Shown: piece by piece, positions 32,600 to 59,852 of the stretch
How positions within the stretch are numbered: position 1 is the first letter of the stretch
Layout of the letters: each line of letters begins with the position of its first letter
DNA from: an uncultured Dehalococcoidia bacterium
GTDB taxonomy: Bacteria; Chloroflexota; Dehalococcoidia; Lucifugimonadales; UBA3495
NCBI GenBank assembly: GCA_958296385.1
Contig: OY282494.1
Coordinates: forward strand, 1,037,416 to 1,101,415
Length of the DNA stretch: 64,000 nucleotides
Direction of reading: 5' to 3'
Translations under genes and position numbers: made by a program
Notes under the pieces: generated by a model
Seen by the model: the letters and a program-made list of their open reading frames with translations, nothing else
What the model was told of the DNA's origin: nothing
Database searches by the model: none

Positions 32600-33610
32600 T
32601 TACTCGATTTCCCGCGGGTTCAGCCACGGCATAATCTCCCGCAGCCCCCGGCCCACTTCGTGGATGCGGCTGGTGCGCGCTTCCTGGCGCAGCCGCAGGA
32701 AGTTGTGCCGCCCCTCGTCGCACTCCGCCATCCATTCCTGCGCGAATGAACCGCTCTGGATGTCGTCAAGCACCCGGTGCATATTCGCCCGCACGGTGTC
32801 GTCCACCACCCGGCCCCCGCGCGTCAAGTCCCCATACTCGGCGGTGTCGCTCACCGAGTACCGCATATAGTTGAACCCGCCCTGCTGGATGAGGTCAACT
32901 ATCATCTTGAGCTCGTGCAGGCACTCAAAGTACGCGATTTCCGGCGGATAGCCCCGCTCCACCAGCGTCTCAAACGCCATGTTGATCAGCGCCGTAACGC
33001 CGCCGCACAGCACCGACTGCTCGCCAAACAGGTCGCTCTCCGTTTCGTCCTTGAAAGTAGTTTCCAGCACCCCGGCCTTGGCGCACCCGATACCGGCGGC
33101 ATAGGCCAGCCCGATATTCTTGGCGTTGCCCGTAGCATCCTGATGCACCGCCAGCAGGCACGGCACCCCGATGCCCTCTTGCACAAAATGCTCCCGCATC
33201 CGGTGGCCCGGCGCCTTGGGCGCAATCATCATCACGTCCACCGACGGCGGCGGCACCACGAATTCGTAGTGAATCGTGAACCCGTGCGCGAACATCATCG
33301 CCTTGCCGGGCCCCAGATTCGGCGCAATCTCATCCCGATAAACGTCCTTCTGAACGTGGTCCGGAATTGCCACCATAATCACGTCGGAGGCTTTGGTAAC
33401 CTCGGCAACGCTGTCCACGGCCAGCCCCGCGTCGCGGGCCGCCTGCCGGCTGGCGCTGCCCTCGTACAGGCCCACCATCACGTTAACGCCGCTGTCGTGC
33501 AGGTTCAGCGCGTGGGCGTGCCCCTGGCTGCCGTACCCAATAATGCCCACCGTCTTGCCGTTCAGCACGGAGAGGTCGGCGTCCTTTTCGGTGTAGATGT
33601 TAACTGCCAT
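32600..33610 (-). CDS. ilvC: Ketol-acid reductoisomerase (NADP+)
   Basis: A 336-residue class I IlvC, which isomerises and reduces acetolactate or acetohydroxybutyrate with NADPH and Mg2+. The Rossmann loop [15 protein letters not shown] is near residues 23-37; the catalytic region has [22 protein letters not shown] and the acidic [12 protein letters not shown] and [14 protein letters not shown] metal-site segments. Length is that of the class I short form. It lies 84 bp after ilvN and before the leuA leader on the minus strand. Confidence 0.97.
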
Positions 33611-33694: not shown

Positions 33695-34294
33695 TTAGAC
33701 GCCCTCGTAGTGGCCCGGCTGGAACCGCGCGCCGGCGACGGCGAACCCGTTGCGGCTGGCCTGGTCAAACTCCGCGCCCACGTCGTCGCTGACCCGCCCG
33801 TCCGTCTTGCCCCGCACCATGGCCACCCGCCCGGTACGCATCAGCTCCAGAATCCCAAACGGACGCAGCAAATCGTAGAGCGCGTCGATTTTATCCTCTT
33901 CCCCGGTCGTTTCGATGACCAGCGACCGCGTGCCCACGTCAACGACTTTGGCCCGGAACAGGTTGGCCATCTCCAGTATCTCGCTCCGGTTTGACGGCGT
34001 AGCCCGCACCTTGATGAGCGCCAGCTCGCGGGCCACCACGTCCTCGGATGTGATGTTGGACACCTTCACCACGTCCACCAGCTTGTCCAGCTGCCGGGTA
34101 GCCTGCTCCACGGTGTACTGGTCGCCGGTCACCACAAAAGTAAGCCGGGAAAGCCCTTTCTGCTCGCTGGCGCCCACCGCCAGGCTGGCGATGTTGAACC
34201 CCCGCCGCCGGAACAGGCTGGCCAGCCGCGTCAGGACGCCCGGCCGATCCTGCACCAGCGCGATGATAGTGTGCTGGTCGCTATGCTGATTCAA
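33695..34294 (-). CDS. ilvN: Acetolactate synthase small (regulatory) subunit
   Basis: A 199-residue IlvN/IlvH regulatory subunit. The ACT domain begins IIALVQDRPGVLTRLASLFRRRGFNIASLAVG, which binds valine in known enzymes; the C-terminal domain (residues 85-165) has ELALIKVRA and GILELMRTGRVAMVRG. A 25-residue tail ending GARFQPGHYEGV is longer than usual. It overlaps the 3' end of ilvB by 14 nt, so translation is probably coupled and subunit stoichiometry maintained. Confidence 0.96.
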   Translation of the reverse strand: MNQHSDQHTIIALVQDRPGVLTRLASLFRRRGFNIASLAVGASEQKGLSRLTFVVTGDQYTVEQATRQLDKLVDVVKVSNITSEDVVARELALIKVRATPSNRSEILEMANLFRAKVVDVGTRSLVIETTGEEDKIDALYDLLRPFGILELMRTGRVAMVRGKTDGRVSDDVGAEFDQASRNGFAVAGARFQPGHYEGV

Positions 34295-35987
34295 CGCCCA
34301 CCCCCTGGCTGTTGGGCTCTTCCAACATCTCGTTCACCGACTCGCCGGCCGGTATCATCGGAAACACGAACTCATCCTCTTTGACCACAAAGTCCACCAC
34401 CACCGGCCCCGGCGTTTCCATCGCTTCCTCAATTGCGCCGGCCACCTCATCCTGCCTGGTTACCCGGATGCCCCGGATTCCGTAGGCTTCGGCCAGCTTT
34501 ACGAAGTCGGGATTGCCGCTGTAAATCGTGGCAAAGAAATCCTTTTCGTAAAAGAAATCCTGCCACTGCCGCACCATCCCCAGCGAACCGTTGTTCAGGA
34601 TGGCGTACTTGACGTCAATGTTGTTTTCGGCGGCCGTCGCCAAATCGCACAGCGTCATCTGGAAGCCGCCGTCGCCGGCAATTGACCACACGGTCTTGTC
34701 CGGCCGCCCCACCTTTGCGCCCAGCGCCGCCGGCACCTCAAACCCCATCGCCCCGCTGCCGCCCGACGTAATCAGCGAGTTCGGCTCCCGGTAGCCATAG
34801 TGCTGCGCCGCCCACATCTGATGCTGGCCCACGCCGGTAACGATGATGGAATCGCCGCCGGTAATGTCCGACAGTTCCTTAAGCACCTGCTGCGGCAGCA
34901 GCTCATCCGACTTGCGGATGAACAGCGACGGATGCTCGTTGCGCAGCCGGTCCGTTTCCTGCACCCAGTCCAGATGCACGTTGGAATTGACCATCGGTAT
35001 CAGCGCGCGCAGGGACAATTTAAGATCGCCCAGCACCGGAACATCGGCAATGACGTTCTTGTTGAACTCCGACGGGTCAACGTCGCAATGGATGATTTTG
35101 GCATTAGGCGCAAAGTCGGCGATGCGTCCGGTAACCCGGTCGTCAAAGCGCGCCCCCAGCGAAACCACCAAATCCGCGCGGTCAATCGCCAGGCTCGCAT
35201 ACGCCATCCCGTGCATCCCCGGCATCCCCAGGTTCAGCACGTGGTCCGTCGGCAGCGCCCCAATCCCCAGCAGCGTAGTAATTACCGGAATCTGCGCCTT
35301 CTCCGCCAGCTGCCGCAGCTCGTCCCAGGCCCGCGAAATCAGCACCCCGTGCCCGGCCATAATAATCGGCCGCTGCGCCTCGTTGATGAGACTGGCCGCC
35401 GCCGCCACCTGCTGCGGCTCCGGCGCCCCCGGCGGCGTGTAGCCCGGCAGGTCAACCTCATCAGGCCATACAAACTCGATTTTCTCCCCGGCCAGCACGT
35501 CCTTTGGAATGTCAATCAGCACCGGGCCGGGCCGTCCGGTGCGGGCGATGTAAAACGCTTCCTTGATGGCCGGCGCAATGTCCCGCACGTCCATCACCAA
35601 GTAGTTGTGCTTGGTAACCGGCAGCGTAATCCCCGTAATGTCGGTTTCCTGAAACGCATCCCGCCCGATAGCGGCCCGCGGCACCTGCCCGGTGATGCAA
35701 ACGATGGGCACCGAATCCATTTGCGCCGACGCCAGCCCGGTTACCAGGTTGGTCGCCCCGGGCCCGGAGGTAGCCGAGCAAACGCCCACCTTGCCCGTAG
35801 CGCGGGAATACCCGTCGGCCGCCATCGCCGCCGCCTGCTCGTGCCGCACCAGAATATGGCGCAAACCGGGGTAAGCCGACAACGCCCCGTAAAACGGCAG
35901 CACCGCCCCGCCGGGCAGCCCAAAGATAGTGTCCACCCCCTCCTGCAATAGGCTTTCGCAAACGATTTGCGCGCCGGTCAATTCCAT
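34281..35987 (-). CDS. ilvB: Acetolactate synthase large (catalytic) subunit
   Basis: A 568-residue TPP- and FAD-dependent acetolactate synthase, joining two pyruvates or pyruvate and 2-oxobutyrate. The start is MELTGAQIVCESLLQEGVDTIFGLPGG (written here in order only as a landmark region); the catalytic Glu lies in VRHEQAAAMAADGYSRA, and the TPP motif begins GDGGFQMTLCDLATA and ends with NN. ATG 35985-35987 has GGAGAGG upstream; the longer frame to 36071 enters the T-box terminator and is rejected. First gene of the operon, directly downstream of a leucine-type T-box. Confidence 0.95.
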   Translation of the reverse strand: MELTGAQIVCESLLQEGVDTIFGLPGGAVLPFYGALSAYPGLRHILVRHEQAAAMAADGYSRATGKVGVCSATSGPGATNLVTGLASAQMDSVPIVCITGQVPRAAIGRDAFQETDITGITLPVTKHNYLVMDVRDIAPAIKEAFYIARTGRPGPVLIDIPKDVLAGEKIEFVWPDEVDLPGYTPPGAPEPQQVAAAASLINEAQRPIIMAGHGVLISRAWDELRQLAEKAQIPVITTLLGIGALPTDHVLNLGMPGMHGMAYASLAIDRADLVVSLGARFDDRVTGRIADFAPNAKIIHCDVDPSEFNKNVIADVPVLGDLKLSLRALIPMVNSNVHLDWVQETDRLRNEHPSLFIRKSDELLPQQVLKELSDITGGDSIIVTGVGQHQMWAAQHYGYREPNSLITSGGSGAMGFEVPAALGAKVGRPDKTVWSIAGDGGFQMTLCDLATAAENNIDVKYAILNNGSLGMVRQWQDFFYEKDFFATIYSGNPDFVKLAEAYGIRGIRVTRQDEVAGAIEEAMETPGPVVVDFVVKEDEFVFPMIPAGESVNEMLEEPNSQGVGVESA

Positions 35988-36070
35988 TATCGGCCTCTCC
36001 TGCGATGTGTTCAGACGATGCGCCGTCCGCGCCAGTGCGTCAGCGCCAGCCGGACGGGTCAATTTGGGCA

Positions 36071-36101
36071 AAAATAAACCCCGACCCCGAAGGGACGGGT
36101 T
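36071..36101 (-). terminator. T-box intrinsic terminator
   Basis: On the minus strand AACCCG-T-CCC, loop TTCG, GGG-T-CGGGGTT, then TTTATTTTT. It competes with the antiterminator formed by the T-box sequence just upstream. Confidence 0.85.
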
Positions 36102-36357
36102 ACAGGGCCCGCGGTACCACCCTTCTTTTCCACGTGCCGGAATCCATCAACTAATCCGTATGACGGAACCCACCACTCGGAACGCTTTTGTACAAGGCCG
36201 GTATCGGGGCTGACCCGCCTGTCCTACCCACGCCAATTGCGCTTCAGTCAGGACGCTCCGGGGCGAGTTCGGGAATTACGGCCACCGACTTTCACCAACC
36301 GTCGGCTCTCTACCGGCCTGCCACCCCCTACTACTCCCCATCACCGCGACAATTCTG
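36071..36357 (-). promoter_or_regulatory. T-box riboswitch, leucine-specific by specifier
   Basis: Minus-strand leader with the hallmark T-box sequence AGGGTGGTACCGCG (36109-36123), whose TGGT would pair with an ACCA-ended uncharged tRNA. Stem I landmarks are a GGGGAGTAGTA loop near its base and GGTTGGTGAAAG-type distal elements. The specifier position (GAA-CTC-GCC, 36265-36267) reads CTC, a leucine codon. It ends in a terminator (36071-36101). Uncharged tRNA-Leu would favour antitermination and expression of ilvB-ilvN-ilvC-leuA. Confidence 0.9.
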
Positions 36358-56950: not shown

Positions 56951-57784
56951 TCAAGTTGCATCCCCGGCGAAATGGTTGGCTACGGCTAGTACCAGGTTGC
57001 CCATGTGGGGGTGTTCGGGTTCTATGTCAACGGCGATGTTGGATTCTTGCAGCTTGCGGGTGCATACCGGGCCTACTGAGGCTACGGCTACGCGGCTTTG
57101 CAGGCTGGCGCGCAGGGATTGTTCGCATCCGGCAGCGGCGGCGATGGCCAGCAGGTTGGGGACTTGGGGGCGGCTGGTGAAGGCCAGGGCGTCAACGTTG
57201 CCGCTTTCCATTTCGGCGATCAGGGAGAGGACGGGGGCGTGTTCGGTGGGCAGTCCCCAATCGTAGAGTACGAGTTCGCGGTAGTGGGCGCCTTGCTGAC
57301 GCAGGTAGGCGGGGAGTTCGGAGTCGGGGCCGCCGTAGCGCTGTACGATTACGCTGCGGTTGTGCAGGGGGAGGGGGAGGGCAGACATTGCGGCGGTGAG
57401 GTCTGCGGAGGTGAACGGCTCCGGGGGCATTACGTGAATGGGAATCTTGTTGCGGCGTAAGACGCGGGCCGGTTTGGGGCTGCGGGCGACGACGGTGAGA
57501 TTGCGCAGGGCCTCGGTGAATTGGTCATGCACGCCCATTGTGATGGCGGTTTGCATCATGGCTTGCGCGCCGACGCCGGTCAGGAAAATGGCGACGTCAA
57601 CGCGGCCGTCGCAGACGTCGTTGATGGCTTGTTGCACTTCCGGGCTGTCAGTCCGGTAGTGTTCCTGCAAGACCGGGGCGGCCAGCGGAACGCCGCCGTG
57701 CCGCCGGATGAGGCCGGCCATCTCGTCGGACATACGGGCCTCGACGAAAGCCAGAACGCGTCCGTTGAGGGATGCGGTTGTCAT
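56951..57784 (-). CDS. hemD: Uroporphyrinogen-III synthase-like protein
   Basis: A 277-residue HemD-family protein, which closes hydroxymethylbilane to uroporphyrinogen III, the precursor of siroheme, haem and cobalamin. The family is poorly conserved; visible features are the start GRVLAFVEARMSDEMAGLI, IFLTGVGAQAM near residue 65, LVLYDWGLPTEHAPVL and the AFTSRPQVPNLLAIA segment with VASVGPVCTRKLQESNI near the end. It follows the siroheme-dependent reductase by 16 nt on the same strand, which supports a role in making its cofactor. Confidence 0.85.
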   Translation of the reverse strand: MTTASLNGRVLAFVEARMSDEMAGLIRRHGGVPLAAPVLQEHYRTDSPEVQQAINDVCDGRVDVAIFLTGVGAQAMMQTAITMGVHDQFTEALRNLTVVARSPKPARVLRRNKIPIHVMPPEPFTSADLTAAMSALPLPLHNRSVIVQRYGGPDSELPAYLRQQGAHYRELVLYDWGLPTEHAPVLSLIAEMESGNVDALAFTSRPQVPNLLAIAAAAGCEQSLRASLQSRVAVASVGPVCTRKLQESNIAVDIEPEHPHMGNLVLAVANHFAGDAT

Positions 57785-57800: not shown

Positions 57801-59636
57801 CTAGACGGCGCACTCGCCCTCGCCGCGCTCCAGCACGTACTGGTTGGTACGTTCCCAATCGAAGTACATCTCGCCGCCGGCCTCGGATTCGTGGCCGATT
57901 TCCTGGGCGCGGGCGGCTACCGCCGTTACGTCGTCAAGGCCCACGCGGTCGAGAAAGTCGTTGAACCGTTCGCCGTTGTGAGCGCGGTTGTCCTGGTAAT
58001 AAGTGACAATCTCTTTGAGGACGGAGGGAACCAGTTTGGCGGGGACTTTAATCTTGGGGACGCGGGTTCCGATGCGGGAATCCTCAACGCGGTTATCACC
58101 GTAGTTGCCGCCGAGGAACAGTTCGTAGGCGGGAATCTGCTTGCCGTCAACGCCCTTGACGGCGGCGCCGTGGAAGCCGATGTTGGCGATGTGGTGGAGG
58201 CCGCAACCGTTGGGGCAGCCGCTCATCTTGATGCGGATGTCCTGGACGCCGGGGTCGTCGGTGAGGCCGTTCCAGGTTTGCATCTCGGTGCGGAGGGCCT
58301 GGGCCAGGCCCATGGAGGCGGTGATGCCGAGTTTGCAGCTGTCGGTGCCGGGGCAGGACACTACGTTGGTGATGTGGCTGTGGCCGGGTTCGGCCAGGTC
58401 AAGGGCTTGCAGGGCTTGCCAAACGTCGGGCAAGTATCCGGTGGGCACCCAGCGCAGCACCAGATTTTGCTCTTGCGTGGTGCGGATTTTGCCGCCGGTG
58501 TACCGGCGGACGATGCTCGCGAGGCCGCGGAATTGTTCGGGGGAAAGGTCGCCGCGGACGGGTTTGACGTTGACGACGTGGTAGCCGTCCTGCCGCTGGG
58601 GTTCTACGTTGGTGTCCAGCCAGCGCCGGTACTCCGGGCTGCCGTCATTGCCATTGGGCGAGGCGGGCGGCGCGGGCGGGGTTTCGCGCTGGATTTCCTC
58701 AGCCGTCATCAGGGGTCGGAAATCTATGGGGCCGATGTTGGCAAGTTCGGCGTCAACCATGGCGCGGAATTCGTCAAGGCCGATGCGGTCGATTAGCACT
58801 TTGAGGCGGGCCATCATGCGGTTTTTGCGGAGGATGTCGGCGTTGTTGAATACCGTCCAGATGGCCAGGGCGACGCGGAGGTAGTCATCCTCGGAAACCC
58901 ATTCGTAGAGGGGTTTGGCGAGGCGGGGCATTATGGAGGTGCCGCCGCCGCAATAGACCTTGAAGCCTTTGCGCGGCTCGCCATCGATGGTTTGGTACCG
59001 GGATACGAAAGTGAGGTCTTGCACGGCGGCGGCTACTTCGTCGCGCTTGTCGTTGCCGGTGAAGGCGGACTTGAACTTGCGGGGGAAGTTTTGCGTGATG
59101 GGGTGGCGGGCGCCAAAGCGGACGTAGGCGGTTAGATATGGCGTGGGGTCGAAGGTTTCGTCGGGGCTGACGCCGGCGGTGGGGGAGCCGACGACGTTGC
59201 GGACGGTGTTGCCGCAGGCTTCGCGGGTGGAGAGGCCAACCTGGCCCAGCAGCCGCAGGGCGGCCGACGTTTCCTCCAGGGGGATGTGGTGGAACTGGAT
59301 GTTCTCGCGGGTAGTGATGTGGCCTTTCTGCAAGGGGGCGTAATGCTCGGCGACGTCGGCCAGGGCTTCCAGCATGGCGACGGAGGCGATGCCGCCGGGG
59401 AGCTTGACGCGAATCATCTGCACGTCGGCCTGGCGCTGACCGTACACGCCTTGCCGCAGGCGGAACGGGGTAAAGACGGTGTTGTCAAGCTCGCCGACGC
59501 GGAAACGCGCGACTTCGGCGTCAAAGCGCTGGATTTCATCCTCCATAAAGGGGATGATGCCGGGCGCGTCAGGGGCCAGACGCATACTGGAGGCGTGGAT
59601 TTCCTGCTGGTCGGGAGACTGGGGCTGGGTGGTCAA
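57801..59636 (-). CDS. Siroheme nitrite/sulfite reductase (ferredoxin type)
   Basis: A 611-residue nitrite/sulfite reductase with two half-repeats and siroheme plus 4Fe-4S. The cluster cysteines are in CPGTDSCKLG (about 427-433) and SGCPNGCGLH (about 472-476). The N-terminal half has RLRQGVYGQRQ and HITTRENIQFHHIP; the second half has RRYTGGKIRTTQEQNLVLRWV. Whether nitrite or sulfite is the substrate is not fixed by these motifs. TTG 59634-59636 is the start, with AGGAGG five nt upstream; a long terminator-bearing leader precedes it. hemD follows by 16 nt. Confidence 0.93.
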   Translation of the reverse strand: MTTQPQSPDQQEIHASSMRLAPDAPGIIPFMEDEIQRFDAEVARFRVGELDNTVFTPFRLRQGVYGQRQADVQMIRVKLPGGIASVAMLEALADVAEHYAPLQKGHITTRENIQFHHIPLEETSAALRLLGQVGLSTREACGNTVRNVVGSPTAGVSPDETFDPTPYLTAYVRFGARHPITQNFPRKFKSAFTGNDKRDEVAAAVQDLTFVSRYQTIDGEPRKGFKVYCGGGTSIMPRLAKPLYEWVSEDDYLRVALAIWTVFNNADILRKNRMMARLKVLIDRIGLDEFRAMVDAELANIGPIDFRPLMTAEEIQRETPPAPPASPNGNDGSPEYRRWLDTNVEPQRQDGYHVVNVKPVRGDLSPEQFRGLASIVRRYTGGKIRTTQEQNLVLRWVPTGYLPDVWQALQALDLAEPGHSHITNVVSCPGTDSCKLGITASMGLAQALRTEMQTWNGLTDDPGVQDIRIKMSGCPNGCGLHHIANIGFHGAAVKGVDGKQIPAYELFLGGNYGDNRVEDSRIGTRVPKIKVPAKLVPSVLKEIVTYYQDNRAHNGERFNDFLDRVGLDDVTAVAARAQEIGHESEAGGEMYFDWERTNQYVLERGEGECAV

Positions 59637-59817
59637 GGTGTCCTCCTCAGGGTGCGGCAATAAAAAAACCCATCGTCGGCGCTGGCCGAGGCGATGGGGG
59701 CGAAATAACGGGCTGAAAGTGGTTAAAATCAGGTTCAGCCTGCCCCCCTTTTGGGGGTACAGGTACAAGAGCACGCGGGGGCGTGGAAACGGGTCAATTT
59801 GCAATTACTGTGCATTT
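59637..59817 (-). promoter_or_regulatory. Attenuator-type leader of the siroheme reductase operon
   Basis: A 180-nt untranslated leader between a strong promoter and the TTG start. It carries CCTG-CCCCC/GGGGG-CAGG (59733-59757 region), GGCTGAA/TTCAGCC which shares bases with it, and then an intrinsic terminator (59662-59698). Mutually exclusive pairings ahead of a terminator are typical of riboswitches. I do not recognise a known aptamer class. Confidence 0.6.
59662..59698 (-). terminator. Strong intrinsic terminator inside the reductase leader
   Basis: On the minus strand CCCATCG-CC-TCGGC, loop, GCCGA-CGATGGG followed by TTTTTTT: 12 paired bases with one 2-nt bulge. It lies 26 nt before the start codon, so it must be bypassed for expression. 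Confidence 0.9.
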
Positions 59818-59821
59818 GCAA
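59797..59821. repeat. Direct repeat at the reductase transcription start
   Basis: ATTTGCAA occurs at 59797-59804 and 59814-59821, 17 bp apart, between the -10 and the leader. Possible regulator half-sites. Confidence 0.5.
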
Positions 59822-59823
59822 AA

Positions 59824-59852
59824 ACTATACAATTGAGGTCGGGAATTGTCAA
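59824..59852 (-). promoter_or_regulatory. Strong promoter of the siroheme reductase operon
   Basis: TTGACA (59847-59852), 17 nt, TATAGT (59824-59829) on the minus strand: perfect -35 and 5/6 -10. Confidence 0.8.

Follow-up and report, generated by a model that had tools for sequence, protein, structure and literature searches.

A predicted cysteine-responsive transcription attenuator with a probably leaderless leader ORF upstream of a NirA-type reductase gene in SAR202-type Chloroflexota

A siroheme reductase gene of an uncultured Dehalococcoidia bacterium follows a long leader that contains an intrinsic terminator, raising the question of which signal might control read-through into the gene. 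The window analyzed here is the whole 64,000-nucleotide stretch of DNA that carries this locus. The reductase gene (57801–59636, minus strand, TTG start) encodes a NirA-type siroheme sulfite/nitrite reductase of 611 aa that matches PF01077 and PF03460. Its best NCBIfam match is the NirA family protein, with a score below the NCBIfam cut-off, and the sequence alone therefore does not decide between nitrite and sulfite reduction. A gene for a HemD-type uroporphyrinogen-III synthase (56951–57784, minus strand, PF02602) starts 16 nt downstream of the reductase gene and probably belongs to the same operon; genes for PhoU and an ABC ATPase are located upstream of the leader on the same strand. All leader elements lie on the minus strand, from the promoter at 59852–59824 down to the TTG at 59636. 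A fold of the plus strand of 59637–59852 was discarded as irrelevant because the reductase gene is encoded on the opposite strand.

The initial annotation described a leader of about 180 nt upstream of the reductase, which is present, and proposed that it is a new riboswitch. Its promoter, which had been called perfect, is of the sigma-70 type (TTGACA-17-TATAGT, 59824–59852) and is the best-scoring one within 14 kb, but it matches the consensus at 11 rather than all 12 positions. A cysteine-rich short ORF at 59815–59735 had been overlooked. This ORF, MHSNCKLTRFHAPACSCTCTPKRGAG, consists of 26 codons, from an ATG at 59815 to a TGA stop at 59737–59735, with Cys codons at 59803–59801, 59773–59771, 59767–59765, and 59761–59759, and its C-S-C-T-C stretch reaches into the first hairpin, on its 5′ side. 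The ATG is located only 8 nt downstream of the −10 box; the ORF is therefore probably leaderless, with a transcript predicted to start at about the ATG.

The conservation of the ORF was analyzed in a family set of 29 leaders, comprising that of the window and those in front of 28 other orthologues from the same family. Relatives with 82–85% identical reductases are metagenome-assembled genomes named, for example, SAR202 cluster bacterium or Dehalococcoidia bacterium. The promoter is near-identical in the relatives within the genus and takes the form TTGACA-17/18-TAnnnT within the family. All 29 leaders contain a start codon 6–9 nt past the −10 box (27 ATG, 2 GTG) that opens an ORF of 16–26 codons with 3–6 Cys codons, the last of which directly precede the switch. 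Outside the genus the typical ORF end is C-x-C-P-P-T-stop, and the ORF of the window is longer and more diverged than that of the sister species. In the alignment of the genus, 7, 10, and 13 out of 21 columns are variable at codon positions 1, 2, and 3, respectively, and the Cys frame contains no stops and nine fully conserved residues, compared with five and seven in the other two frames. Four additional family leaders (L060, L061, L063, and L065) also carry a Cys ORF.

Beyond the family, a Cys ORF was found in 12 out of 19 other families of the order and was clearly absent from five, with two families ambiguous (judged partly by eye). Around the cysteines of these distant leaders the sequence varies freely, and Cys is the sole conserved residue. 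A strict scan (promoter, start codon 5–11 nt after it, 7–32 codons, at least two Cys) was positive for 42 out of 52 reductase leaders of the order (29/29 in the family and 13/23 in the rest of the order) and for none of the 25 reductase genes from elsewhere in the phylum (P = 1.6e-12, Fisher's exact test, with related leaders treated as independent). The background of the same scan in other windows from the same loci was 25 out of 976. A pattern of promoter, leaderless ATG, and three Cys codons was positive in 22 out of 36 genomes and identified the reductase locus in each of the 22, with a single extra match elsewhere (in G003), and the reversed pattern gave no match in the 36 genomes. A pattern of consecutive Cys codons had four matches, three of which are known reductase leaders and the fourth is L116 in G048. 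One locus (L081 in G039) carries a longer multi-cysteine ORF, GACFCTCRCTCSEQGCCACSSS, on the reductase strand approximately 45–230 nt into the locus and approximately 400 nt before the reductase, which may encode either a leader peptide or a small protein.

The full terminator with its run of seven Ts was confirmed, as was the clean ribosome site in front of the TTG. The hairpin (CCCATCG..CGATGGG, 59669–59698, −18.9 kcal/mol) is followed by the T-tract at 59662–59668, which ends 25 nt upstream of the TTG, and the Shine–Dalgarno sequence AGGAGG of the reductase gene (59642–59647) is left uncovered by the hairpin. A terminator hairpin is present at all 29 family loci, 28 of which were identified automatically and one (L006, whose T-run is imperfect) manually, at a distance of 29–111 nt upstream of the start of the reductase match. 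Overall, it is 95.8% paired across the relatives and four pairs have changes in both partners (17 cells of this kind); none of 500 shuffles reached this covariation, either in cells or in score. These observations bear on the possibility that the same cysteine leader peptide acts mainly on translation and that the hairpin is an ineffective terminator. Weak T-tracts in some leaders (L006) would fit such control, for which the mycobacterial polycysteine leaders offer a reported precedent (cited in PMC13236596, PMC9094748), but a strongly covarying hairpin with a T-run at nearly every family locus, placed at this distance from the reductase and leaving the ribosome site of the window free, makes it very improbable. 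Termination of transcription is thus the preferred mode of control.

Three complementary segments precede or overlap the terminator. Segment 1 (CCTGTACCCCC, 59753–59763), defined from the sequence and the alignment of the relatives, overlaps the last Cys codon and forms the 5′ side of hairpin 1:2. Segment 2 (GGGGGGCAGG, 59739–59748) is the partner of either segment 1 or segment 3, and segment 3 (GCCCCC, 59696–59701) forms the 3′ side of the antiterminator and overlaps the 5′ arm of the terminator. Folding places an intervening hairpin (GGCTGAA..TTCAGCC, 59711–59740) between segments 2 and 3. In the window, GGGGGGC (59748–59742) is complementary to the upstream CCCCC (59757–59753) or to GCCCCC (59701–59696). 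The relatives have the same arrangement: segment 1 (CCUGUCCCCC) lies inside the ORF and is followed by segment 2 (GGGGGCAGG), whereas segment 3 (CCUGCGCCC) overlaps the 5′ arm of the terminator. Their exclusive states are 1:2 together with the terminator or 2:3.

The mutually exclusive pairings proposed in the initial annotation are thus present, but their significance comes from the relatives. The leader of the window folds better than shuffled sequences (z = −2.76), and its antiterminator complementarity taken alone is not significant (P = 0.39–0.55). In a set of 58 leaders, segments 2 and 3 are more complementary than in composition-matched shuffles (Fisher test, 5e-23), and the 13 order-level leaders alone give the same result (4e-10), with the caveat that this test counts related leaders as independent. 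In the alignment, 1:2 is paired in 89% compared with 40–61% in slid controls, and 2:3 in 91% compared with 45–58%. Covariation across homologous reductase leaders, suggested earlier as a check, is strong in the terminator and almost absent from the 1:2 and 2:3 pairings, as expected when segment 2 has to suit two partners. Folds were also computed with the ribosome placed on the final Cys codon, at a stage when the 3′ arm of the terminator has not yet been transcribed. Segment 2 then paired with the terminator arm in 29 out of 29 leaders, assuming a ribosome front edge of 13 nt, which lets the free RNA begin at segment 2. Equilibrium folds with a stalled ribosome do not discriminate between the states, as the terminator wins in nearly all cases, and the decision for antitermination must therefore be made cotranscriptionally. 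Taken together, the terminator and the exclusive pairings support the earlier suggestion of conditional read-through, which is predicted here from sequence.

A structured leader that contains a terminator and can pair in alternative ways would also be compatible with a riboswitch in which a sulfur or nitrogen metabolite or siroheme drives the terminator and the Cys-rich ORF is incidental. As had been reported, no known class is recognized in the leader: Rfam gave no match above the gathering threshold, and the best match at a permissive threshold (anti-hemB, 14.3 bits, E = 0.69) is at the level of chance. The missing match leaves room for a new class, but the RNAalifold consensus contains hairpin 1 and the terminator only and no aptamer fold, and the stretch that separates segments 2 and 3 is variable. 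Conservation instead falls on the Cys-codon ORF and the three complementary segments, which are enough for ribosome-mediated attenuation, and distant families change the sequence yet keep the leaderless Cys ORF. A riboswitch with an incidental ORF is therefore extremely unlikely; the proposed link to sulfur metabolism stands, whereas ligand binding is not supported by a separate conserved aptamer fold.

The hallmarks of trp-type attenuation are codons for the regulated amino acid in a leader ORF, a conserved terminator, a matching antiterminator, and a matching pathway. At this locus the Cys codons are clustered, the leader contains a terminator and a predicted exclusive antiterminator, and the genes suit the cysteine pathway. 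The leader is thus very probably a ribosome-mediated transcription attenuator of the trp type, sensing Cys-tRNACys and controlling assimilatory sulfite reduction. In the mechanism proposed, of which the transcription start, translation, stalling, and the direction of control are inferred rather than seen in the sequence, the transcript would begin at about the leader ATG and the ribosome would load onto the nascent 5′ end without a Shine–Dalgarno sequence, as suggested by the promoter spacing; the predicted leaderless start would make loading possible from the moment the RNA appears. With ample charged tRNACys the ribosome would run through, segment 2 would pair with segment 1 or stay covered, and the terminator would form and end transcription upstream of the reductase. 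When Cys-tRNA is scarce, the ribosome would stall on the last Cys codons and cover segment 1, so that segment 2 could pair with segment 3, block the 5′ arm of the terminator, and allow the polymerase to read through. Cysteine scarcity during protein synthesis would thus most likely turn the reductase on, and the quantity sensed is most likely charged tRNACys and not a free metabolite or siroheme.

A Cys-rich nascent peptide might alternatively sense metal, thiol, or redox state, or its C-x-C-P-P end might arrest the ribosome, with tRNACys charging playing no part. Copper-responsive Cys-rich leaders are a precedent for sensing by a peptide, and C-x-C-x-C and the C-P-P-T end are kept in most family leaders. 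The C-P-P-T end is not retained across the order, however (ends such as CCR, CCCSL, CCCQTKT, and CACRCGP), and its proline codons occupy the same position as RNA segment 1. Both controlled operons, the second of which is described below, suit sulfur assimilation and cysteine synthesis and not metal handling. Sensing by the peptide itself is accordingly rated very unlikely, and tRNACys charging is retained as the most likely signal.

Further sites were searched with a covariance model (R1) built from the reductase leaders and run on the family genomes and on 301 genomes of the phylum. In most family genomes R1 gave a second match besides the reductase leader, and in 28 of them, among the matches fetched, this site is located upstream of a gene for a ThiF/MoeB-type adenylyltransferase. 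In the two operons that were read further (G010 and G032; supported by a profile match for G010), the ThiF-type gene is followed by cysteine synthase. The second-site leaders are Cys ORFs closely after a promoter (e.g., MYRIRQERFCTCTCPRT), and their position before a ThiF–cysteine synthase operon indicates cysteine independently of the reductase. In one other family, a third Cys leader (CCCTC; ending MCCCTCPP) precedes a gene for a TauE/SafE-type exporter that is directly downstream of the reductase gene (L141, 4721–5739, minus strand, G047). In the genome of the window, the ThiF-type gene (at 2382668; L143, G000:C1:2382668) has no Cys leader, which leaves the reductase leader as the only one found there. 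A cysH-type PAPS reductase (PF01507), considered as a regulon partner, is absent from 13 out of 14 genomes of the genus (G000–G013), which keep the sulfite reductase. Among the 301 phylum genomes, R1 had four matches outside the genome of the window (E values from 7e-5 to 9e-4), none of which proved to be such a leader on inspection. The low-scoring R1 matches L133–L135 and L137 are inside or beside unrelated genes and were rejected.

Charging of tRNA can also be read without a leader ORF, as in T-box leaders (RF00230), which bind uncharged tRNA directly; the leader ORF distinguishes the reductase leader from these. A cmscan search of the window identified a T-box, a full one, only at 36088–36353 (minus strand, 106 bits), before ilvB, and none at the reductase leader. 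The genes after the T-box resemble the large and small subunits of acetolactate synthase (34281–36071 and 33695–34294) and ketol-acid reductoisomerase (32600–33610). With a T-box and a Cys leader in one window, amino-acid genes of this genome are probably controlled both by T-boxes and by leader peptides.

Each ingredient of the system has a precedent, as cysteine attenuators, leaderless Cys ORFs, and leaderless attenuators are all known. The uORFC-8-2 motif of the Rhodobacterales, located before cysS, is a proposed case of ribosome-mediated attenuation with tandem Cys codons and an intrinsic terminator (PMC8632094). It resembles the reductase leader in its Cys codons and terminator but precedes a cysteinyl-tRNA synthetase gene in alphaproteobacteria and has a different sequence and structure, and the excerpt of that report used here describes no leaderless start. 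Cysteine leader ORFs were predicted in the Actinobacteria in 2005, without conserved terminators (PMC1262725), and mycobacterial polycysteine leaderless ORFs have been reported to act as cysteine-responsive attenuators (Canestrari 2020, doi 10.1111/mmi.14498; see PMC13236596, PMC9094748). As predicted for the reductase leader, the mycobacterial ORFs are short and leaderless, contain Cys codons, precede cysteine operons, and reportedly respond to cysteine. That system belongs to another phylum and is described as translation attenuation, whereas the reductase leader contains a conserved, covarying terminator. In Sinorhizobium meliloti the trpL transcript starts directly with the ATG of its leader ORF, and antiterminator and terminator are mutually exclusive (PMC7298713), similar to the leaderless ORF predicted here and its exclusive pairings; trpL differs in its Trp codons, its control of trpE, and its unrelated sequence. 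A search of the open literature returned no prior report of a cysteine attenuator in the Chloroflexota, which does not prove that none exists. What appears to be new, relative to the searchable literature, is the host group, the set of genes controlled, and the way in which the elements are combined.

Overall, the SAR202-type Chloroflexota are likely to possess a cysteine regulon, comprising the NirA-type reductase, the ThiF–cysteine synthase operon, and in one lineage a TauE-type exporter, that is controlled by leaderless Cys leaders with terminators, a combination whose origin is separate from that of the mycobacterial and rhodobacterial Cys leaders, with an ambiguous reductase assigned to sulfur assimilation. 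Since the gene is under a putative cysteine attenuator, the reductase is most likely an assimilatory sulfite reductase that feeds cysteine synthesis, which points to a function for an enzyme whose annotation is ambiguous between the reduction of nitrite and that of sulfite. A specific and readily testable mechanism thereby takes the place of the riboswitch proposal, and short cysteine ORFs right after promoters can be used to find further switches of this kind. The leaders point to a small regulon for cysteine in marine and sponge-associated bacteria, which are largely uncultured.
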